This document shows positions 1 through 16,400 of a DNA stretch of 18,138 nucleotides, piece after piece. Both the position numbers and the translations under genes were made by a program. Numbering within the stretch: position 1 is the first letter of the stretch; each line of letters opens with the position of its first letter. Source of the DNA: Candidatus Omnitrophota bacterium (lineage in GTDB: Bacteria; Omnitrophota; Gorgyraeia; Zapsychrales; JANLHA01). The notes beneath the pieces were generated by a model. That model searched no databases. It was given only the letters and a program-made list of their open reading frames with translations, and was not told the origin of the DNA. The stretch is from assembly GCA_024653845.1 (NCBI GenBank), contig JANLHA010000279.1, forward strand, positions 1 through 18,138, given 5' to 3'.

Positions 1-582
1 CGGAACCAGCCCACCCATGACTCGCTGCCGAGTCTTTTGTGGAGCATCAAACCAATCGTTCAGATCTGCTGCAATCAAAATGAACCGATCACCCTCAACT
101 GCCCGCGAATCCTGCCATTGACGGGAGCTATAATATTTCCCCCGATAAAGATTACCCCATCGGAAATTCAACAGCGCTTCCTGGATGGCGTCGGGATCAT
201 AATCAATTCCCACTACACGGCGAGCGCCGAGGCGCAGGGCCACCAAGGCCGGGATACCAACGCCAACCCCATCGAACTCCACAACTTGTCCTTTCAATTG
301 ATTGCGGATTGCTAGCAAGGAGGCAATGACCGTCAGTGCATAAGGCGAATAGACATGAGGGTTTTCTAAGACAATGATTTGATTAAGATAAGCCTTAATC
401 ACCGCCGGATCAATTGTGACGTCTTTGCTCACAATCACTCGCGACCCCACGCGCAAATATCGGCTGGCTGCTTCTCCCACATCCATCACCGTCTCAAAAC
501 CCACCCCTTGATCCACCATGACAACGCCTCGTTCCACCGTCAAGTGGTTGTCTCTAATGATTCTTTCCTCGATGTCTTTCCA
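1..582 (-). repeat. SAM-methyltransferase-like domain copy 2, cut by the window edge
   Basis: The blocks RYLRVGSRVIVSKDV, VEFDGVGVGIPALVALRLGA (motif I), RRVVGIDYDPDAIQEALLNF (motif II plus helix) and RFILIAADLNDWFD (motif III-like) match copy 1 in order and spacing, with LVALRLGA or HVALRLGA as the shared core. The nucleotides under the core have diverged, so the duplication is not recent. The substrate is unknown. Confidence 0.65.
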
Positions 583-1074
583 ATTGCCCATTTCTAAAGT
601 GACGTCGGCAACGGCAATTGTTTCTTTTCTCTTCGCAGAAATAGCTAAATAGACGTGATAAGGCGCCCCAGGATTTGCATAGAAAGGCCTCTCATGATGC
701 ATAGCAATGCTATTCTGAAAATGTCGGTCCCGCAACCAATGAGAATCTGCTCTTGCCCAAGAAATGCTTTGGGATGAATGTCGAGGATCAATTCTTTCAA
801 AATACCGCCCCACGACCAATCCTGACAAATTCCGTCGATCAACCGTCAACTGCCACCTGAGGTTCACAGATAAAGGCACGTGTCGTGCAGTGCTAACAAT
901 CAAAATATCAACGGCAGCAGACATTCTCTGTCGTTCGAAAGAATAATTTCTGCTTCTTGACTGCCGAGCATCTTCATGAACCAAGACAAATTGTTCTTTG
1001 TTAACCGCGGCGGCCGAGAAATCATCGTCGGCCAAGAGAAGCTTCCCTTGATAACCAGCCCGCGCCAAAATCTT
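1..1074 (-). CDS. In-frame continuation of the giant gene after the TAA: rest of methyltransferase copy 1 plus copy 2
   Basis: The minus-strand frame of the giant gene stays open for 358 codons after the TAA, to the window edge. It begins KILARAGYQGKLLLADDD, which supplies the helix and third strand missing from the methyltransferase-like fold that the stop interrupts, and DILIVSTARH looks like the fourth strand. From about 582 down to 1 follows a second, complete-looking copy of the same domain. If translated separately, candidate starts are TTG at 1068 or ATG at 924 (MSAAVDILIV); neither has a clear ribosome binding site and both would start inside the fold. It is therefore either the 3' part of a gene broken by a nonsense change or sequencing error, a readthrough product, or a domain-split second gene. 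It is truncated by the window. Confidence 0.75.
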
Positions 1075-1479
1075 TTATGTTTCTTTCAAGACACTAAAGT
1101 TCTCATCAACAATAACCACCTGCCGGGCTCCTAAACGCAGCGCCACATGCGCCAAAAGACCTGATCCTTCGCCATCAATTTCCACCATCTGATCTTTCAA
1201 AGGATGCTCCAACATGCCGGCGATGACCGGAATCAATTCCTGACTTAAAGAGCCCCGTGTCGGGACAACAAAAATCTGGCGAAGAAGATAAGGAACAGTT
1301 TCTGGAGGGATGGGCAAAACTAAATCTTTAGTGACGAAGATTAATGACCCTATCCGTAGATATCGACCCTGCCCTTTTTCTGCCCGAACAACGTTGAAAC
1401 CTTTTCCTGTCCCTAACAAGGCAACGCGACTGCTCAAGGAGATTAGACCATTGTGCTGCAAAATTACTTTTTCCAGCCA
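583..1479 (-). repeat. SAM-methyltransferase-like domain copy 1, interrupted by the TAA (from residue 5539)
   Basis: The lead-in RYLRIGSLIFVTKD is followed by VEIDGEGSGLLAHVALRLGA (motif I glycine loop, 5640-5645) and VVIVDEN (motif II acid, D5663). The TAA then falls in the next helix, and the fold resumes in frame with KLLLADDDF (strand 3) and VDILIVST (strand 4). The Rossmann-type order matches class I methyltransferases. A copy with the same blocks begins 299 codons later. Without the part beyond the stop, the cofactor pocket would be incomplete. Confidence 0.6.
1075..1077 (-). other. Single in-frame TAA inside a methyltransferase fold
   Basis: The codon reads TAA on the minus strand between LKET and KILARAG. 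The second methyltransferase copy has uninterrupted sequence at the same place (IQEALLNFRWGN). The site is one substitution away from CAA, GAA or AAA, any of which would suit an amphipathic helix. It is the only stop in 6,046 codons of this frame. Confidence 0.9.
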
Positions 1480-4400
1480 ATGCAAATCCACATCGTCTTC
1501 TTTGACTTCAGAAGGTCGTTCGGTCAGCAATATCCTCTGCAAATCTTGATCCATTACAATTTCATAACCAGGTTCGTCAGAGACATAGATCATCAGATCA
1601 AAATCTTTTGAATTATTTCGCAAATGATGAATAGTTTTACGCAAGGCCTGGTCGTCATCGTCTCCCTCAAAATGGAAACGCTCATGTTCTCTCAAGATGA
1701 TGCGTAAAAAGAAAAGCCATGTGGCTCGGAGGGATTCGTAATGAAAATAATTTTGTGGATCTTGGCCGCCGGAGAATTCAACCAATTTATCCAACACAAA
1801 CAGATGTAAATAAAGCGTCTGACGATCCGACGAGACCGCCATGATTTTGTTGCCGGTATTTTTGAAATCGGATGTGACCACGACACGCTTGCCCTCCGGC
1901 TCCAATAAAGCATATAAATAAGAAGAAACGTTAGCTAACTCCTGGCTGGCTTTAACGCGCAAAGCCAGCCAGGCTTCTTGTTCGGCTGCTGTGCCAATCT
2001 TGGCCTTCATGGAGTCACTGAAAACAGCGTCGTTCAGAGTCACGGCAGCAGAACCCGAACCAGCAAGAACAACTTCCGCCTTGAAATCATCGGCGCGATA
2101 CCGTCGGCGGGCGGCCAGCGTCGGTGCAAACGGGGCGGGAAGCGGTTCGGCATTTTGCCCGACGCGGGCGGCCTCGCGTCTTTGTTCAACGTCGGCGCGG
2201 ATTTCTTTCAAATAGGTCAGAAGACCTTTACGGACAATCTTCACTCGATTGCCATCGGCGTCACTTTTAGTGACCATAAAATCATCCGGCCGTCCGGTAA
2301 GCCTGCAACACACCAGCCGATGAGTTCTCCTCCACATTATATAATCTGGTATCGCATACCCATAAAAAGCCTCCCTTGACGCATCCGCCTCACTGCTATA
2401 AATGATCACTGGGGTGTTGATTCCTGAATCTGGAGATTTGATCGCATCCAAAAATGTTCCCGCGCCAAATTGCGTGTCTGTTGGCCAATGGGCATCCAAA
2501 ATAACCACATCAATAGGAAGCCCTAGCTGTTCATTCATCTGGAGAAACTTGATCAATGAATCCACAATTTCGCGATCTGTTCCCACGCTCGCATTGAAAA
2601 GGATTAATTCGTAGGGACCAATTTCTGAACGAATTTCCAAAATATCTTTAATCGGCTCCGCGAGATGATCATCAACCACCAGAATCCTCAGAGGAATGCC
2701 CTCTCCATCCGTCGATACAAGAAGAGAACCGTATTGATCGAGTGGGCCTTGAATTCTTGGGTCTTCATACTGCGCATCCACGATGATGGCACCAGATTTT
2801 TCGGTTATTTGGAAAACCGCGTTTCTCTCGCGAAGAGCCTGGGCATGGCCTACGGCCATGGCTGTTAACGCCTCTTGATCCGTCGAGATCAGAATCAACG
2901 ATACTCTGTTGCCGCCATTGCCATTGAGATCCATCAGAATGCGACGCACTCCATCGGAAGTATAAACTCGCCGGACTTTTTGCGTTACATATGACTCCAT
3001 CACATGCTGAGCTTCTCGGGCGGCGTTTTCTAAATGAGTTCTGCCATTGAGCTCGTGGATAAATACAAGAACCAAATTGTAAGCGGGGTTGGCAAGAATG
3101 AGCGTTTGGATGTAAACAGTGTGGGTGAGAGGATCATAATAGGCGCCGAAGGTAATATTTTTTGAATCAATCATGCGCAGCGTCGGGAGACCTTTGACAA
3201 CATTCAGGTGATCTTGACCCAACACACGCATCGCTTCGTTACGCGCCGGCGTAAGCTGTTTCCCTTCGTTCCTTCGAGGTTTCCGCCCATGTCCTGCGGT
3301 TGCAATTTCGGCGAGAGTTTTTTCGATGGGATAATCGTTATACCCTCCGTCTTCGGTGATGGCCAGTTGTCCAACGACATCTGGCGCTTGCAGCGTCACC
3401 CGATTTTGCCGACGGGCAAATAAGAACATGGTCACAGTTTCTTTCGGCAGACGGATGCGAACCATGGTCCGGTATCCTTTTTGCGAGGAGGGCAGATATT
3501 CCATCTGGCCACCATTGGCCACAATCGTCTGGGACGCGTCACGCACTCCAACTTTCTGCGCACCCAAACGAGGATAACCTCTGGAGGCGGAAGAATTCGC
3601 CAGCACAATCCAGATCCCGTTCTCAAGACGTCGAGTATTTGCCCAATCCACTCCAATTCCATTATCAAGAATCTCTATCATCCATTCTTGGGGCGTTTCA
3701 TAAACGCGCAAGAGGATCGCCCCTGTTTCTCTTGCTCGGGCATACGCATCGAAAGCATTTTTAAGAAGCTCTGCCAACACTTCGTCGGCATCATAAGATC
3801 CTCTTCCCAAAAGCCAAATCCATGTGAGCCCCGATTGAAGACTTCGGATCTTTGTTTCTGCACGAGAAAGATGGAAGAAGTCATATTCTTCCATCCGGAG
3901 TCTCTTAGCAAGCCGCAGCACAGCCCCCTCTTGAGGGATCGCTTCAGGAAGCAAAGATTCTTCAATGGCTTTCGGATCCAATCTGCTTTGCATGAGGCGA
4001 TTGAATGCCCTCTCGATGACAATCAAGCCAATCAAAGTGCCAAGAGTTCTTCGGGTGGCTTCAAGAATTTGCGGATGCTGTATGAAATAAAGAATTGTCT
4101 GATCTTGTGCTTTTTCTTCGTCTGACCCTTGCGCATGAAACGCCTCATGCCCGTCGATCATCCCCTGAAAGAAGAGCTCGAAATCTCTCGCCGCTTCAAA
4201 ATCTTCACGATGGATCCGTTCAACCATTTGATCAACATTGAAAAGATGAATGTAGAGTATTTGAGTGTTTTCATCAAATGCGGCGAGGGCCTTTTGGGTC
4301 AGGGAAGAATTTGAGGTAAGAATGATTTCTCGCACTTCGTCCACCGGCGGACCGCGGCGCAAATAGAAAGAAGCGAGAATCAATTGACGAATGGCGCGAA

Positions 4401-7400
4401 TTTCTTCTTCTGTCAGCCGCCTGCCCAATTGATGCTCGACGCTAATCTCTAATCCACGGATAACCACTTTGCCTTGATAAATTGGTTTGCCTTCATATTC
4501 GGCGACGACGCTGGGGGCTAATCGATACGGCGCAGACAGCGGACCTGGCTTGTCAGATCCGTGAGCATCATCAGCTTCATCCTGAGACCCTTGTAAAACT
4601 GTGCGCTGCCTTAATGCTTCTTGTCGACGGAATTCCGCACTTTCGCTCATATAACGAACCATGCCACTGACCATTTCTCCATCGGAGACACCTTGTTTGA
4701 TCGGGCCTTGGACTGCGACCGCGACACGACGACTGAATCTCTTAGATATTCTATAAAACACTGACAAACCAAGCAAGTAAACGAACCCTGATAACGCGAT
4801 CACGTCGGCAACATTGGCATAGGCATAGAGCTCGCCGCCTTTTCGAATCGGAATGAAGTCAACAACAGGAAAAATATTTGTGAAAATTTGAGGTGTTGCT
4901 GAAAGAACAAGTCCGTAACCAATGGACACAGACAAAGCAAATCGTCCACCCTCTTTTCTGTACCATCTGAAGATGCTGAATAAAATCCAGAATGGAATCA
5001 ACGCAGCAAATATTGTCACAAATTCATCACTAATCCTGGGCAATAGTTGCTGGGCGACGGCCTTGCGAGTCACTGAGATCGATTCAAAATGATGGAAAAA
5101 TGTTGTGACCGAAAGGTGTTTGGTGATTTGGTCAATGACAGCACCAAGGCTAGCAATCAAAAGGATGGTTGTCACCAGGGTCCGTCGGAGAATCAGTCGC
5201 GGATCTTTTCCATGCTTAACATATCGATGAAGGATAACCATTAAGGTCGCCAGCATCGCAGATAAAACCATGCCATGAAACGTTCCTGCCTGAGTCATCT
5301 CAATCAAATCTTTTTCTACGCTATGGGAAGCAATCAAGTCGAAAGGCTCTGAAGCCATCGCCCAATTGCTAAAAAGCCCGGTAAAAATAGCCGCCACGAT
5401 TTGCATCATCCGTCGCGCTGTGAACGATGGGCCTCGACGTAAATTCGGTCGACCTGATCCATTTCCTCCAGCCGGTCCTTGCCCTCCTCCTTGCGGCGAT
5501 GGCGGCTGCGATCCTCCGTTACGGATGCGTCGAACGAGCTCAAGAAGTCCATTCTTCGTCAATCGGTTCTTTAAATCGGCGAGAAACGCTTGCAATCTGA
5601 AACGCTGAGATATTTGAGTGTGCCGTGTAAAATAAGTTTCAACGACCTTCCAGGCATCACGAACTTCAGGATCTTGATGGAACAAATCGTTCACCGATGG
5701 CGTTCCGGTTTCTAATCCTTGAAGGATATCTTGTTGAGGAGTAATCTCTTCGGGTTGTCGTGAACGCACAGGTGTAGACACTCGAGGGGCTGGACGCGGA
5801 CTTGCAGGCGAAGACGGCGCTGAGCTGGATGAAGGAGGTGGCAAGTTCGAAGAGCTTGGAGAGTCTATACGCTCTTTCTTCGAGAATATTCTCACCAGAA
5901 CAAAAATCAGAGCTATCGGTGCTCCCAAAACAAGAAGAATATAAAAAAGCTCCGTGAAGATATCAATGCCTTGTGGGTGGCTTGCTTCATTATAGCCTTG
6001 GCCAAAGGACGAGCGGGTCAAAACAACCAAGGTTGCTAAAATGAAGGCTACGTGTTGACCAACTTTGATGATTTTTCCACCGAGGCTAGCCAGCCAAGGC
6101 GCCAGTCTTCGACGATGATGCTGGCTCCAAGTTCTATAATCTTGATCCGAAATCTTCTGACCTTCTTTCTCTACGAGAACCGTAACAATGTCTTGAGTAG
6201 TCGGAACAATCGTAGCCTCAATCCCTTGGGCTTCAACAAAGCTGGCAAAAGACCCCACCGCCTCATCCAACGCATGACGACGATCTGAAATAAATACCGC
6301 CGCCTGCCTGGAGTTCTCTTGAATCAAGATGATTTCAACCTCCCGGATCTGGTCGATCCGACGGACAATCACATCGTCATGGCCATTGAACAACCGGATT
6401 TCTCGCAAAGCCGGAATCATTTGGGCAAACGCAGCGTCGGCCACGATGCCAAAAATTTCTGGCTGGTTGAGAACATTAATCGTGGCACTCAAAACATCCA
6501 AATTCCGATGGTAATATTCGATGTTACGCTGCCAAACACTCACCTCTTCTGTAGCACCTGTCTTCAAAATGTCTTCGACGTGCAACATTTCATGCCCATC
6601 AACTTGGCCTTTGAAGAAAAGTCTTAGGTTCTCGGCTTCGACGAGTAAGCCTTGGGTTTTGAGTTCGATGTATTTATTGATAAAGAAAGAATCGATGTAG
6701 AAGAATTTCTGATCGGGAGAGACGGTGAAAAGTTTTCCTTGAAGCTGAGAAACGTCGTTGGTGATCCAAATGGTCGGCGGCGCACGATTGAGATAACTGG
6801 GAACCGCGAGCAATTCTTCAATGGCTTCAACTTCACGATATCTTAAAGCTCTTCCAAACAATCCTCGATTCACAAGAACGTCTTTTCTAGCTGTCACTGT
6901 GACAAAAGCCGAGAATTCTTTGGACTTCAAGGCTCGGCGGGCCTCTTTGATCGGCGCCATCGGGCTGGGGTGATTTTCGCCCTGCGCAGCGGCGACTTGG
7001 GCGGCGATTTGCTGATAACCGCGAGAGAGGGCAAAGAAATCTTCTGTCGGCATTCTATTTTCATCGAACCGCTGTAAATATTGAATCCAATCAACTCCCC
7101 TCACAATTTCGGGATATCCGAATCCGGCACCTGGCATGAACCGCGCAATGGCTTCAAGCACATTTTCCACCCAGGGGAAACGCATACACTGGCCGTCTCT
7201 GCATGTCACACGAGCGAGCATCGTAGGCTGGCCAATAATAACGTTTTGAATTCCCATCTCGTTCAAAATCTCAATTTCTTCTCGATACCGCTCTGCAATT
7301 TCCTCAACAGTTTCTAAAAGTTCGTCATACCCCCAAAATTCCCCCTCAGGCGTTGGTTCTCCTCTCTGAAGGCCGGTGACAACTTTCATCCCGTTGAAGT

Positions 7401-10400
7401 TATTGAAATTTCTGCTCAATTGTTCTCTGATATCAGCATTAACACCTCTGAGCGAATAATCAGCCAAGAATATAGAATGAACCGGATCTTCTTGACGATA
7501 AATTCCAGCGAGTTCATTTAAGAATCCATAGAATCGGCCGATTTCAACGACCCCTTCTTCATTAAAGAAATGTTGTCGAATGATGTGCCAAACATCACGA
7601 TCTTCTCCCAAATGATCGAATGCTGTATTATCTTGGATGGATTCAGGGGTTTGAAAACCAAAGAACTCGACGGCAGCAACCGATTCTCCCAGGCGAGAGG
7701 CCCACTGCGCAAATTCACGAATCAACTGGCGGACCAGGTCCAGATGATATTGAACAGGATCTATCCCGTTGGGAACCGGAGGATAAAACTCATTGCTTGC
7801 CCCCCATCCGGCATAATGTGTTAACACAACTTTTAAGCCCATGTTGGCAAAGCGACGAATCAAATCTTCTAAAGGCTGGGGATCAAAGTGAACAAAATGA
7901 TTAGGCGGCATTCCAATCCAAATACGATTGTGGCCATTGGCGGCTAAGATAGGAGCCACCTGATCGACAAATTCCAATGTGCGCATGTACTCACGACTAT
8001 CATGGATGGGACGGCCGTCGACGACGCGTGGCAATCCAAAGTAATAATTCCCATGCCCTCCTAAATAAATATTTTCAGGGACAGGGGTCCTGCCTGCATC
8101 CGCCTGAGCATCCGGTTGGGCGTCAGGAGATGCACCGGCATCCGCATCACGGGCCGCATCCACCCCAAGATCAGAAGTCGCATCAGCACCTAAATCAGTT
8201 TCCATGTCACGTCCCATATCTGGGGTTGCGTCAATAGCTGCATCGCGTCCAGCGTCGGCAAAAGCATCACGGGCCGCATCCACCCCTGCCTCAACCGTGG
8301 CGTCAACTCCCAAATCACGCGCTGCATCTGAAGCTCCCATCATATCTTGAGCCGCTCCGGCATCAGAAACCATTCCCTCGTCGGGAACTTGGCCATCAAT
8401 CGTATCCCCTTCATGCAAAGGCTCTGTTCGGCCGCAAGCAGCGGCCCATAATGCGGAAAGGACTGCCGGCAGATCTCGTCGGGTGATTCCTGAGTTGCTG
8501 GCGGTATTCCTTTTTGATCCTCGATGATTTCTTCCCAATTTTTTCCAAACGATCATGCCAGCAACAACAATCACAGCCAGTGCAACCCACGGTCCCACAT
8601 AAATATGAGTTGCAAAAATTCCCGCTAATCCTGTCAAAATCAAAATCCCACCTTCATTAACTTGTTCAAAATTCCTTGTGGGATCAAAAATTTGCATGTC
8701 ATGGTCCGCGATTCCCGTCGATACTTTTGTGCCATTAACCCGTGCCGGGGTCTTTCTACTGGCCACCTGCACCTCGTCACCCATGATTTTATTCACATCG
8801 ATCAATTCCAATTCATACAACAATTCCAATACCGCCCACCTATCAATACCAATCGAATAAATATTAGAAACAACGCCTCTCAAACTCTTCACGGCGGCTT
8901 GTAATTGGGCTCGTCGATCATCTCGAGTCCCGTTAAAAACCTGCAAAGAAAGACCATCAATCAAGGCCACTTGACCATGAGCGAAAACTCCGTAATCAAA
9001 ACCGATGTTCTTAAGATCAATGTCCGTCATCCCAGCCTGCAATTGAGCATCATAATTTTTTAAGAAGCTCTGAATGACACGTTTAATCCGCTGAATTGCT
9101 TCGCGATCGCCGTCCTTATAAAATGTCCATTGGGATTGAACATATTCGCCTAATGATTCCAAAGGCATCAGCATGGTTCTGAATTGTTCATCCATTTCCA
9201 CTTCAAAAATTTCATGATAGGGTCGACGGGAATGACGCTGATCCAAGACAAACAACATGGTTAACCATGCGTCGACATTGTTTTTAAGATAATAGGCTGT
9301 ATAAATGCGGGCCTGTTCTTCTTTCATTCCTCGAACATGATAAAATTCGTGTTTATCAATGACGATGTTCGCCAAAAACTTTAAGAGGTTTTGATACTCA
9401 AGATGGCGCTTGGCTTGCTTGAGAGCAACTAATCGGTCAACTCCAAAAAGATGAATGTTCAATTCGCGAGGATTGGCTGCAGCGAGAGAATTTTCAGTGA
9501 GACTAAAATCAGAGGTGAGGAACACAGCAACGGGTTCGTTATCTTTGTTGACCGGGGGGCCGCGTTTCAATTCTTCGGAGGCCATGACCAAATCTCGAAC
9601 CACTTCGCGCTGGAGATCATTCAATGAACCATTTTCCTCTTGGACAACCACGACACTTTCTCCATCGATCGCAACTTTGCCCTTATACGCATTCTCCGGT
9701 CCTTGACGATCAGCATAAACTCTACGAGCCGCTTGCGTCGGGGTAAAAGGCGCGGGAAAGGCTACATCGTCTTCTTCTTGCGCTTGCTCTTCCTCTACAG
9801 CACCTTCAAAAGCAGATTCCTGTTCCAGTGCGCTGACATGAATAGTGATCACAGCCCCTTCTGGCGATATTTCGACTTCCGTTATAGAGTCAATGAGATT
9901 TCGATACCATTCATTAATAGCGGCAGCCATCGTCATACGTCGTGCATCTTCCTTAGTATCCAGCGATGGGCTTTCGAGGGACGATCCAATGACCGGCAAA
10001 TTTACAAAAGGCACTTGAGGGAAAGCTGGCGGAACGACCACGGTTGGAACGGCCATATCTGAAAATGGATTGGAATTTTGTCCTGCTTGCACAGCGCCGT
10101 TGGCCACAACGTCTCTTGCCGGCTGCTGCTGGCCTTTTCCTTCAACGGGGGAAAATGCCTTGGCATCTGCTGCATCTACGGCACCCTCTTCTCGACGAGG
10201 ATTGGTTGGCAATGCTTTGTTTTGATCATTCCGGCCGACCACATAGACTAACAAAACAACCAAACCAAACGTTAGCGTTGCCCACAAGCCGCGCAGGCGA
10301 CGGACCAAGCTCTTGCGAGATGCAGAAGTGCTCAACTTATCTTCTCCTTCAGAAAACGCAAGAAACGATGAAGTCGAAAACCCAATGAGCAGTATGAGGA

Positions 10401-13400
10401 TCAGTACCAATCCGATATTCATTTCAATAATCCGACGGTATCCTTCAGAAAGAGCCCGGAATGCAGGCTTGGCTGCAAAATTTTGTTCATCATCAAAGAG
10501 CGCTAAACCTGAAGAAGCCGGATCAATCACCGCATCTTTCCAATATTCTGCAAAATATTCATGCCAGAGCAGCCCGGCGAGGATCTCTCGTTCGCCAGCG
10601 TTAGCTCCGGGAGCAAACACTCTCAAAGCTTCGGTCACATTCTGAGCGAATTGCACTTGGCCTTCATCACCGAGCGGTCCCGTTGAGGAATACCCAAATT
10701 CGCCAATCAACACACGATCGACTCCCAAATTATGAGAAAATTCCATCTGTTCGCGATAGTAGCCTCGTAACGTCTCGACGGACAAGACCTGTGCATTGAC
10801 AATTCCGTCGGGATAGGTGTTCAAGGCGATGCCATCAAAATTGTTCATGTGGGGAGCGATCAACTCAATTTGTTCTTCAAATAATTCACCATGTCCCAAG
10901 AACACCAAACGATCTCCATCTTCGGCCTTGTATTCCGCGGCCAAATCATTCATCAAATCGTGATATTCTCCAGGAGTTAAGTTAATGGTGTCCCAAGGAT
11001 TACCGCCGCTGAAAAAGATCCGACTGGCGCCGGCCACATAATATTCATTTTCATTGCCCAATTGCACCGCAGCGATCGCATCGCCTTGCGCGCGAACCCA
11101 GCGGGCAAAGGCACGAACCTGATTTCTCAAAATTTGCAAATTCTCCGGCGTAGGATTGGCCAAGAGGAATTCGCCCTGGGCATTCGTTCCATACATCGCA
11201 AAGAACAGCGGCAATGTGCGAATGCCATGATTGCGATAAAGATCGCGCGTGAATTGTCCGACGACAGCTTCATCAGCGGCGGTCAAATGATTCGGAGGAA
11301 GATATGTTTTGATGGTGCTGTGATCGTTGCCAGCAAGCACTGCAGCAACTTGGCCGATGGGTTCAACAACCGGTAAAAAGTTCTGATGAAAAGCGGTGAT
11401 GTCCTGCGCGGAGGCTCGTGAGCCCGTATATTGAGCTGCACCACCAAGAATCAGTTCCGTCTGAGGTCGAACCATTCCGCCATCAACACCTGCATCGCCG
11501 GCGATCGCATCCGCAGCATCTGTTTCCACGAAAGCCACATCGACTGGAGGAACGGTTGCGTCATTTACTCCGGCATCTGCTAAAATTCCCGCATCATCCA
11601 CACGTGCATCCGGAGTCAATACGTCTTCGACACTGCTGTCTGCAGCACCAGCATCACGAGAACGATTTACATCATCTGCGCATCCTAAGAAAGAAACGAT
11701 CAAGGGAAGGATCAGTGTTGCGGCAATGAATCTTTGGAGGAAGGATCGAGTCGCTTTCAAATTCGGCGCGCGGGCAGCGACGGAGTGGCGCAACAAAAGA
11801 TTCTTCAAAAGGCGCGCCATCCAAAAACCGAATCCAACGAAAAGAGCCCCTAAGACAATAGCCTTAGCCACTAACGGCAATGCGGCCCAGACAACAACTC
11901 CGACGACAAAAACCAAGAGCGGGGCGACGTGAACGCTCGTCCTAACATCATGACTTGAATTGGATCCCGAGGTGCCTTCCCGGCCTCTTTCCTGCTCTTC
12001 TTTCATTCTGGTCAAAGCAATATTCAATTGATATAAATATTTTGCCGTCGCTTGAGTGTTCCTTGCTCCCATCTCACGATTGGAAACCATCACCTGATCT
12101 GATGGAGCAACCGCCTCGCTGCCTACGTAACCAAGCAAATCCACGGACGCCGCCGAGCCAAGGAAATTATCAAAGTAAATAACCCTCGCAGAATCACTCA
12201 ACTTTCTTTTCAGCTTTCTGATGCCCTCTTCGCGATTAACTCCTTTAGGCATGATGACTACAGATGTACGGCCATGAAGCCGAATCTCAATATCTGGATC
12301 GCTAATTAATGTTGTGAAAAACAACAAAAACGTTGTGCGGATATTTTGCAAAATATCCCGGCGAACAAATTCCTGGCGCTCATCTTCCGTCGCTGATTTT
12401 CCGGCCAAATCAAACTCAATACGGGACACTGGTCGTCGCCCCTGAACAACAATGGAATCTTTTCCAACAGGAAGATCCAATTCACGAATCAATCTTATTA
12501 ATGCCTTTTGAATTCTTTCTTTGTCTCGTTGCAAGAAACCAAGCGAAGTACTCACAGATTTGAAACGACCCTGAATAGGATAATATTGGTAAATTTTTGC
12601 AGAATCCAATACAGCTACATAAATATAGTAATCAGGAGCGAAGAGATCTCTCGTCCGCGCAATGTCTCGATAAGTATCTAAAAGCACTGCCTTCGTCTCT
12701 TTCAGATCTCTCCCGGTCATCACAAAAATACGACCACGATTTCCTAACAGATAGGCGACCTCCACCATCTGATAAACAATTTCCTCACGAACCTGTTTTT
12801 CTGAATATTCTCGCAATGTTCCCGTAACATCGAATCCGACGAGAAGACGTTCATCTTGAGAAACTCGCAGAGACTCAACCATGGCAGCAATCCGTAAGTC
12901 CATGCCCATGCTCACTCCCAACACATCTGCCAACGTCAAATGGATTCCACTTCTTTCAGCCAACACCGCGCTCAAAAGACGCGTGGCCATAGCATACATA
13001 AATAAAGGATGTTTAGGGGCTTCGTGAGGACGAATATTGTATGGAATGGTTGAAGCCACAACATTGGCCGTCAAGGCAAAATAGCGTACAAGATCAACCC
13101 CTGCTTCCCCAGTTATTCGGGCAAGGGGTTGATCTTCTCTTGTTAAAAATTCTAAAAACAATCTTGAAAGTTCCTGATACTGTCGCACCGCTGCTTGGGG
13201 ACGAACAAAAAAGCTCAGATGATTTTGCGTCTCCTGGCCATCGCCATTTCTTCTCGTATGGCTTACAAAATATCCTTCTTTCTCAAGGAGTGCATAACCG
13301 TGCAGCGCAAAAATACCTTCACCCAATTTAGCTAATTCATAATAAATATCATATCCAATTCTTCCTCCCCGAGGATCAATCAGCACAAAATCTGCCGAAG

Positions 13401-16400
13401 CTTGGCCGCCTTCGAGCTGACGATAATTCATCAAAATATTTTCCGCCGAAAGATCTCCATGGATACGATAAAGTCGCTTTGGTGCTAAACGATTACCGAA
13501 GGCTTCTACCACGACATCCAATAAATCCAACAAATGAGGGAATGGCTGCCCGTTGACCACAACCGGTCCTTGAGCAAGATCCACAAAAACAGGAGAAAGC
13601 TCTGCGGCGTGGGCTAAGTTGTTTCTCACTTTCCCAAGAAGGAAGCTTTCAATATATCTATCAGGTACAACATCGCCCATCGGGCGATAAAATCCATCGG
13701 CAATCAATGTTTCAAAGATATGTTCTATGATTTCCAAAGCCTGTTGAGCGCTGATTTTCCCGATGACAATTAATTGCTCTAACGTCATCCATTCAGCTTC
13801 ATCATAATAAGGATATTCATACCAGGTGATCCCTTCTCCTTGGGCGATCGAGAAATCAAGCACTCTCACAAAATGCTGACCTTCTTGACCAGAAAGGGAT
13901 CTTAAAAATTCAATCTCGCGAACAAGTTTAATATCCTGAGTTTGAGGATTACCTTTCTCTTCTTTACGCACCAAAAGATGCCCATCTTTTCGGATCAACA
14001 TCACGCGCGCTAAGGCACCGCCCCAGAAATATCTGACAATTTCAAATCCTTCCGCACGCTGAGCAACGGCGGCCGTCCTACCTTCGTACCATAAAACTTC
14101 TTGAAGTTGGGTATCGCTGACAGGCAGAACGCGAGCGGCATCCGCCAATTGGACCGCCGAAACGGCCTTAAAATCACGAATACGCCCAACGGTACGGAAA
14201 GCTGCGGTATAAGAAGCCGAATTCTGGGTCATGTCCCCTGCGGTTCCCTCCACATAAAAACGTCCATCCTCAAAACGCAAATCCCACCCCTGCCCTGCGT
14301 GAACAATGCTGGAAATCTGATTAAGTTTATAGAAATTACGGAAAGTACTATAACTGCCTCGCCCCTCGGCTACACCCGCATCAACCTTTTTCAGGAGTTC
14401 CGGATTTCCAGCAATCTTGCGGCCTTCGATCAGATGAATATGTCCCTCATCACTAAAGAGATATGCGCCTTTCTGAGGCTGGCCGGAATAATTGGCCACC
14501 ATCTCCACGATGGTGTTGTAACCGCTTCTCATCATTTTCATGGCATAAGCCAACTTTCGCGCGGGAGCAATCTCATCAATCAGAAACCTCGTCAAATCAT
14601 TCACCCGATGAGTCCCGACCATATCCACGCCCTGGCTCATCAAATACTGCTGCAAAGAACCTTCAAAATACGTCCGCTCATATTGTCTTCGTCCGCTGGA
14701 TTGAAGCCGGAAGGCCATGTGAGGACGTGTCAAAAGATACAAAGGATCGGTATTTCCAATAGGATGGCGAGGAGAATTTGTATCTAATGAAAAATTCCCG
14801 TTTCCTAAAAGCCTATATCCTCCAAAAACCCATTGGGAAACAAACCACACATTTTTAGGATTGAATCCAAAGAAATTATGAGAATAAATGTCGCCCAGGA
14901 TTTCGTCAGCGTTATTATCATTGACGGCAATAATCAATTTCTGTCGAGAGATCACGGCTTCCGGTTTCTGCCCCCGTGCTCGAGCAAGACTTTCCAAATA
15001 TCCTCGATACATCACCAACTGGCGTTGTCCCATCGTATAAGTGAACCGTCCACTCGAGGCCACATAGGCACTGATCGCAGGAGCCAGAGAATGATCAGGA
15101 TGACGGTACAAGAATTCCTGCATCGCCATAACAGGATCCAGCATATACAAACTCATGGATTCGGCGACCGATGTTCCCAATCCCCGTAAAGAACGACGCA
15201 TCCTTGTCATAGACCCAGCAAAAAAGAATAAAGGAACATATTGTCCTTGCAATTGGACAGATTCGGCAAGGGCGATATCGGCATCTGTGAACCCCTGCTC
15301 ATCAAGCAAAGGTGGCTCAACCATTTCAACTTCACCATGAGGCCGATATCGATTCAATTCATTCACATGGCCATCGATTTCCTGTCCTAAAACTTCAGCT
15401 TCTTTTATACGCCCACTGATTATCAAATTCTCATACTGGCTAACGATTCCGCTGAATTTATGTCTGTGCGGCCCTAACAATTCTTGCATCTGCTTATCAA
15501 GCCAAACTGAGGATCCAATGAGCATACCCTCCTTGGCGACATCACTTCGATGGAAAGAAAGAACAATTTGGACATCTCTTCCAAATTTCGCATCTGCTCT
15601 TACACCATAAATGGCTGGATTATCTAACACCGCAACCACCGCCTGGAGAACACCAATATTTCTGTGTAAGAATTCGAGATGTTCTTCCTGCACTCGCTCT
15701 TCATCCGTTGTTCCTGTACTTAAAAGGTCAACGATGTGGGAAACTTCGTGACCATCAATCAAGCCCACCAAGAAAAGTCGGAATGTTTGATAATCAGAAC
15801 CATGTAATTTTGAAAGGATCGCTAAGGCTTGAATAGAAATATTCAAACGGATGCGATCCCCATGCCGGGAAACTGTGGCGATCTTGCCGTCAGGCAGGAC
15901 ATCAATCACGATATCCAGGCTTTCAGGCTGTGGACGACTAAGGTATTCAGAATTTATAATTAAATCTCTAAAAATATCTATCAGCGGACGTGCAAACCAC
16001 CCCAAGCTATCCCAACTGCTGCTAACATAAACAGCTCCAATTCCACCGACGTGGACAGCTTGCAAGGAATCACCTTGGGGTTGAGGACGAGGATTAATGA
16101 AGAAAAATGGGGCTGGATGAACTTCAATATTTTCTTCTTGCGCATTCGGGGCCCGGGCAGCGACGTGATTTCTCAAAAGCAATCTCTTGAGGAGCAATCG
16201 GATGGTGATGAAACCAGCACCGACAACGAGCGTGGCTAAGACCGCAACTTTGATCACACCAGGCAATGCCAGCAAAAGAACTAGACCTCCCCAAATGGCT
16301 AAAGGTACAAAGCTCAATCTCAATTTCACATCGCTTCCACCCGTCGATCTCTCGGCGTTAGAAGAACGACGCGCGGCTTCAGCTGTCTGTTGAGCTGCGG

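Follow-up and report, generated by a model that had tools for sequence, protein, structure and literature searches.

Giant open reading frames are documented in the bacterial phylum Omnitrophota, for example that of the 39,678-residue protein of Ca. Velamenicoccus archaeovorus, and their roles are described as poorly understood (Seymour et al. 2023, PMC10066038); the integrity of giant frame products has been described as unclear (PMC12057145). The DNA considered here, contig JANLHA010000279.1 of a Candidatus Omnitrophota bacterium (assembly GCA_024653845.1), carries on its minus strand a giant frame with two lipoprotein signals embedded far inside it. The window, by which the whole stretch of 18138 bp is meant, is an entire contig (C186) of a genome (G000) of 2.07 Mb that is 87% complete. 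With the phylum's giant frames it shares the huge single frame, membrane segments, few recognized domains and carbohydrate-related pieces. This frame measures at least 17 kb, being truncated where the contig begins and interrupted by an in-frame stop close to its far end; the giant-frame size used in PMC10066038 is more than 20 kb. Unlike the window, the frames treated in the passages of that paper considered here come with no mention of processing, of LspA inside a chain or of internal signals of the lipoprotein or Tat type, and its main text uses the terms "polyprotein" and "signal peptide" 0 times. A literature search covering titles and the starts of abstracts, preprints excluded, returned no description of processing of giant Omnitrophota chains or of embedded lipoboxes.

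Bacterial lipoproteins are the closest counterparts of the modules themselves, having in common with them a basic n-region, a hydrophobic h-region, a lipobox, a tether and a folded barrel; the signals in the window are, in contrast, internal, lying more than 2100 and more than 3200 residues into the frame. As to chains that are cut, the cytochrome b/c1 precursor FbcH of Bradyrhizobium is a membrane polyprotein cleaved by signal peptidase (a literature search returned no paper on it), and the cutter is signal peptidase I in FbcH as well as in the Flaviviridae polyproteins. Both work much as is proposed here for the window chain, internal signal sequences acting as cleavage points in a multi-protein chain (for the Flaviviridae, PMC7601889). 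The window differs from both, since its lipoboxes point to Lgt and LspA, its host is bacterial and its chains run to thousands of residues.

The explanation favoured here, tentatively and on the basis of sequence, is that the chain would be processed at its embedded lipoboxes by the ordinary Lgt and LspA of the host. Residues are numbered along the translation P0001 unless marked otherwise; the initial annotation of this DNA counted from the ATG at 18093, so that its numbers are those of P0001 minus 15. The features are as follows.

1075..18138, minus strand: giant frame of 5687 residues without a stop, running off the contig at its 5' end, with an ATG at 18093 (translation)
17104..18093, minus strand: polytopic membrane region, residues about 19-342 (Kyte-Doolittle scan)
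15565..16143, minus strand: HExxH (zincin-like) domain, copy 1 (self-comparison and profile)
13420..14034, minus strand: weak APH-like kinase domain, below the Pfam cut-off (PF01636, E 0.0015)
12202..12513, minus strand: HAD/PMM-like phosphatase domain (PF03332, E 7.4e-5)
11815..11949, minus strand: hydrophobic stretch ahead of signal 1, a putative hairpin (hydropathy scan)
11680..11751, minus strand: embedded lipoprotein signal 1, lipobox FLGC, C2153 (pattern and hydropathy)
11470..11679, minus strand: Asp/Ala tether 1, 70 residues, net charge -14, no Lys (composition)
10423..11469, minus strand: GH-A-like barrel 1, with NEN..Y and GEF motifs (alignment)
10231..10440, minus strand: two hydrophobic segments behind barrel 1, overlapping its last residues (hydropathy scan)
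9151..9789, minus strand: HExxH domain, copy 2 (self-comparison and profile)
8542..8652, minus strand: hydrophobic segment or segments ahead of signal 2 (hydropathy scan)
8434..8493, minus strand: embedded lipoprotein signal 2, Tat-like RR followed by AAAC, C3235 (pattern and hydropathy)
8086..8433, minus strand: Asp/Ala tether 2, 116 residues, net charge -22, no Lys (composition)
6988..8085, minus strand: GH-A-like barrel 2, paralogue of barrel 1, catalytic Glu motifs lost (alignment)
6391..6996, minus strand: HExxH domain, copy 3 (self-comparison and profile)
5353..5421, minus strand: signal-peptide-like segment (TARRMMQIVAAIFTGLFSNWAMA/S) ahead of the LspA-like region (reading of the translation)
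4765..5154, minus strand: LspA-like domain, PF01252 positions 2-139 of 142, below cut-off, with dyad counterparts D4427 and D4445 (Pfam and alignment)
3979..4575, minus strand: HExxH domain, copy 4 (self-comparison and profile)
3439..3786, minus strand: HATPase-like domain, just under the Pfam cut-off (PF02518, E 1.7e-5)
2980..3255, minus strand: HELxGxxH domain, common to contig C210 (two copies) and genome G018 (sequence comparison)
1501..2190, minus strand: HExxH domain, copy 5 (self-comparison and profile)
970..1476, minus strand: methyltransferase-like domain, copy 1, broken by the TAA at 1075-1077 (self-comparison)
64..573, minus strand: methyltransferase-like (PrmA-like) domain, copy 2 (PF06325, E 8.5e-6)
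1..1068, minus strand: the same frame resuming past the in-frame TAA and open at the contig end (translation; the paralogue alignment spans the stop)

The two signals are situated at C2153 (codon 11680-11682, minus strand) and C3235 (codon 8434-8436, minus strand), inside one frame and not at the N-terminus of its product, and they take up two of the only six cysteines in 6044 chain positions. Both fit a PROSITE-style lipoprotein pattern that is looser than our main lipobox criterion and for which 0.13 fits would be expected among six cysteines. By the main criterion, which was written after both sites were seen, 29 of the 6044 positions would pass, and two out of six cysteines would do so by chance with P about 3e-4. 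A first, stricter filter had let C2153 alone through; C3235 passed the relaxed criterion and the PROSITE-style pattern. From the end of the preceding hydrophobic segment into the start of the signal, the net charge is +7 over 28 residues at site 1 and +6 over 23 residues at site 2. The tethers that follow (net charges -14 and -22) are lysine-free and consist for 43-44% of Asp and Ala, versus 15% chain-wide. Hydrophobic stretch, basic loop, lipobox, acidic tether and barrel come in the same order twice, and both lipoprotein signals are, judged by their sequence, real. Sequence, charge and composition confirm what the initial annotation had stated about them, namely that FLGC (its C2138) and AAAC (its C3220) each follow a basic and hydrophobic segment and precede an Asp/Ala tether; the coordinates given there for the whole, 4729..11760, agree with these parts.

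Comparison of the chain with itself, chunk against chunk, revealed internal duplication, with five HExxH domains, two barrels and two methyltransferase-like domains. Each barrel lies behind one lipobox, and the two are paralogous (25% identity in the best segment and 32% when signal, tether and barrel are aligned together), which bears out the earlier claim that the signals precede two barrel proteins. Barrel 1 carries the motifs NEN..Y and (G/S)E(F/Y), as does a homologue found by a separate search in a 5271-residue frame of genome G019 that is 38% identical to it; barrel 2 has neither. These motifs correspond to the catalytic Glu after Asn and the nucleophile Glu of clan GH-A glycosidases. 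Family matches are weak (PF00150, E 0.054; PF02836, E 0.016), each occurring in one of three members. When 285 genomes were scanned with a barrel profile, the strong matches beyond the window lay in G125 (16310-residue frame) and G270 (9350-residue frame); the weaker ones, of which many occur in frames about 400-700 residues long, are probably other glycosidases. The G019 barrel is preceded by a Tat-type signal, SNAISRRSILRGIVGVAAATIANAVAGGVKEAQAQ, with RR and an AxA end, and upstream of a weaker homologue in G118 (5239-residue frame) lies a Sec-like hydrophobic stretch ending in QIQA. Across the homologues in the window, G019 and G118, the class of the signal appears to change while the presence of a signal stays.

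The host possesses an ordinary lspA-lgt pair on contig C271 (6986-7399 and 7436-8134, about 40 bases apart), and this canonical LspA carries all 14 conserved residues that are considered below. In the model that we consider most likely, the giant frame arose by the joining and duplication of genes for exported proteins, with no stops left between them, and the joined modules retained their own export signals, two of them being lipoprotein modules. The chain would be threaded into the membrane during its synthesis; hairpins would bring it back to the cytosol, and the basic loop would orient the next signal, for which the positive-inside rule is the basis. Lgt would lipidate each embedded lipobox cysteine and the ordinary LspA would cut in front of it, freeing the downstream piece, which would now begin with a barrel anchored by lipid. 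As for the LspA-like domain within the chain, it would be a divergent homologue and probably not the cutting protease.

Embedded signals seem to recur in other giant frames. In the nine chains examined first (G008 and G040 only to 20 kb), cysteines stand at lipobox positions at a rate of 36.6 per 1000 (3/82); for leucine, valine or glycine the rate is 4-7 per 1000. One of these signals is the lipobox KKRIRMVVLAALLALAGC at residue 8288 of a 16827-residue frame in G028, after a hydrophobic stretch and basic residues; taken alone, it is not significant against the 37 cysteines of that frame (P 0.08). With the criterion unchanged, 8 of 862 cysteines in 12 further frames (176,913 residues) are lipobox-like versus 2.5 expected, in a test that was only partly blind, some parts of the frames having been read earlier. 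This amounts to 9.3 per 1000 for cysteine versus 3-4 for hydrophobic residues. The set comprises frames of at least 2000 residues, two of them on one contig, and includes one 2900-residue frame with 3 cysteines and no match. Tat-like motifs are embedded as well: 26 matches (17 places, overlaps counted twice) were found in 21 frames, versus 7.75 in block shuffles counted alike, and three fixed Tat patterns gave 3 versus 0.6 (shuffle maximum 4), 3 versus 0.1 (maximum 1) and 16 versus 6.9 (maximum 15). Pfam named no enzyme family in eight stretches behind such signals. A 35884-residue frame on contig C68 of G021 (L080-L085) has a Tat-type signal (GISRRSFLKQSSQ...) that recurs in identical form after 2044 residues, as if a large part of the frame had been duplicated, and a lipobox-like site at residue 7942. 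Most giant frames examined have a low cysteine content (0 to 0.6%, or 0.7-0.9% in the two largest) as compared to 1.43% (240/16827 residues) in 39 open frames of 200-1200 residues on the contigs of the 12-frame set.

Several observations weigh against processing of the window chain. What the sequence itself shows is the frame with its signals and paralogous modules, the host's lspA-lgt pair and the homologues that bear other signal classes; threading, lipidation and cleavage are steps that we infer from these. At residues 604-651, a similar hydrophobic hairpin leads on to an HExxH domain, with no lipobox and a loop of net charge 0. The count of hydrophobic segments leaves the topology at signal 2 ambiguous, the model requiring an odd number of membrane passes for the segment in front of it. 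Judged by eye, a signal lies just upstream in only four of eight barrel homologues (two in the window, G019 and G118), and the barrels of G125, G270, G095 and G257 have no obvious signal there. Residues 2000-4700, used as a query, retrieved from the protein database the chain itself only, and hence no relatives in which the cysteines could be compared. A search for S26 signal peptidase I had no match in this genome, which is 87% complete, and matches in 12 of 14 control genomes. In the 12 further frames, some of the eight lipobox-like cysteines resemble plain membrane segments, and only two (G021, G022) are left when a hydrophilic downstream stretch is required, with no clear excess. Since the excess shrinks under such controls, embedded lipoboxes can be said to recur, but can be claimed firmly for few chains only.

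It is nearly as likely, though again short of probable, that the chain remains whole as a giant surface or membrane protein, in which old signal peptides serve as membrane spans and the lipobox cysteines are remnants of fusion. The published view of the phylum is one of giant proteins that have membrane helices and act at the surface (PMC10066038); fusion through stop loss would account for the architecture with no new mechanism, and the four barrel homologues that have no obvious signal fit in with it. Remnants should decay, yet modules of about 25-32% identity both keep lipobox, basic loop and tether, and the lipoboxes are kept within a frame of merely six cysteines. A whole chain is also difficult to reconcile with the 4475-residue open frame of genome G042 (L062 3902-17326, plus strand), which contains TPR, Fic, endonuclease/phosphatase-like, LspA-like and NUDIX domains, a signal with LpxR, a second Fic domain and a Tat-type signal. 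The LspA-like domain passes Pfam at 34.4-36.3 bits and matches TIGR00077 with E 1.7e-8 and 34.5 bits, under the cut-off of 73.95. Residues about 2506-2915 form a signal peptide followed by a full LpxR outer-membrane barrel (E 9.2e-66), and the Tat-type signal falls under its cut-off (PF10518, E 0.0043). Because it mixes an inner-membrane LspA, an outer-membrane LpxR and cytosolic-type NUDIX and Fic domains, this frame could hardly work as one uncut chain. It further contains twelve SSPV tetrapeptides versus 0.07 expected, many of them between domains by eye. As their synonymous codons vary, they look kept at the protein level, and SSPV is possibly a cleavage or linker motif of that genome.

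If the chain is indeed cut, as we tentatively prefer, other cutters can be considered. It is unlikely that its own five HExxH zincin-like domains would separate the modules. These paralogous copies have HE..H invariant, and the domain gave 27 matches in 13 of 54 genomes (loci L013-L037), each of them within an open frame of 1506 residues or more; it therefore seems tied to giant frames, of which it is a possible marker and protease. Peptidase activity is, however, guessed from the motif, as Pfam and PDB searches gave no known family or structure, and no cleavage site is recognized. By eye, a 9937-residue frame on contig C24 of G018 (L009, L007, L008) has a site-2-protease-like HEIGHIVAA and helicase-like stretches.

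Still less likely is self-processing, in which the embedded LspA-like domain would itself cut the lipoboxes, as the initial annotation had suggested. Its observation of such a domain, with VVDF and NVAD aspartates, in the same frame as signals and barrels holds, and a clearer LspA homologue exists in G042; it is the role of cutter that is not supported. As in LspA (Peptidase A8, PF01252, TIGR00077), the motifs D..K, V-x-D and N-x-A-D occur in order (DQITK 4336-4340, VVDF 4425-4428, NVAD 4442-4445), and D4427 and D4445 align with the catalytic Asp118 and Asp136 of S. aureus LspA. A regular expression of the three motifs (D..K, VVD, NVAD), composed after the domain was seen, matches only the window and G042 domains among the nine chains, with 0 matches in 19.7 million shuffled residues and none in the 12 later frames. 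LspA matches exist in 73 of 81 genomes of the order and in 233 of 245 across the phylum; among the 78 matches listed for the order, two are in frames of more than 4000 residues, namely the window and G042. A further candidate for an embedded LspA, in G018 (E 4e-5), was dropped as a membrane-composition match, the stretch having no LspA motif.

In contrast to LspA, the window domain lies inside a giant chain and stays below the Pfam cut-off (18.7 or 21.7 bits, cut-off 25; best NCBIfam E 0.023). Of the 14 conserved residues listed in PMC6952399 (S. aureus numbering), seven are kept (Asp21, Lys25, Val116, Asp118, Asn133, Ala135, Asp136) and seven lost (Asn52, Gly54, Gly102, Asn106, Asp109, Arg110, Phe132). 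The S. aureus mutants R110A and N52A have 0% and 7% activity, respectively (PMC6952399). A profile of 120 LspA proteins, taken among the matches listed, scores 4.5 bits on the window domain, equalled by 148 of 2000 block shuffles, and 12.0 bits on that of G042, equalled by 0 of 2000. Those 120 are the best matches listed for a profile that includes the host's own LspA; eight of them have an organism name, in each case Omnitrophota or Omnitrophica, and one is named as a metagenome, in keeping with a host in this phylum. Queries with the window domain against the protein database (425 candidates, E up to 10) and against the named genomes brought up no relative. Structure prediction, which had been proposed as a check, yielded no confident LspA fold in two low-pTM AlphaFold2 models (pTM 0.31 without and 0.37 with an alignment). 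Furthermore, the G042 frame, with its clearer LspA, has no lipobox by the main criterion, and the frames of G028, G021 and G022, which have lipobox candidates with hydrophilic flanks, do not match the LspA motif pattern. The window domain is probably a divergent LspA homologue, and probably without ordinary LspA activity; the ordinary LspA beside Lgt in the genome makes these two the likelier agents, if the chain is processed.

The least likely explanation is that internal translation starts give several separate products: the modules resemble complete proteins and M2573 (MNIGLVLILILL...) begins like a gene start by eye, but Shine-Dalgarno-like sites of at least 5 bases are not enriched (12/513 versus 14/634 and 1/58 in two other frames, the host's use of such sites not being established), and no ATG stands just before either lipoprotein signal, the nearest upstream being M2107 and M3195. 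Recoded stops as the source of the long frame were rejected by reasoning, because reassigned stops would break, not join, frames under table 11. The in-frame TAA at 1075-1077 (minus strand) sits within a methyltransferase-like domain, and the alignment of both methyltransferase-like copies runs across it; it may be a sequencing error, a recent nonsense mutation or a case of readthrough. Contig C210 of the same genome (L052 1-4518) holds one 1506-residue frame in the order HExxH, methyltransferase-like (by eye), HELxGxxH, and could either continue the window chain or be another copy of it. A Pfam match of TetR_C_2 (E 3.2e-5) to 32 residues of the signal-like segment was judged false and is a warning about E-values of such size in this chain.

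Processing at the embedded signals leads to predictions at the level of single residues: new N-termini at C2153 and C3235 (C2138 and C3220 in the initial numbering), sensitive to globomycin. In a wider and more doubtful extension, the giant frames of Omnitrophota could be bacterial polyproteins, that is, concatenated secretome modules with their own Sec, Tat or lipoprotein signals, separated after synthesis at these signals by the signal peptidases of the cell, which modified LspA-like domains inside some of the chains would assist. The giant "proteins" would then mostly not exist as such. Should cleavage be found, one class of predicted proteins of very large size would have to be regarded as bacterial polyproteins.

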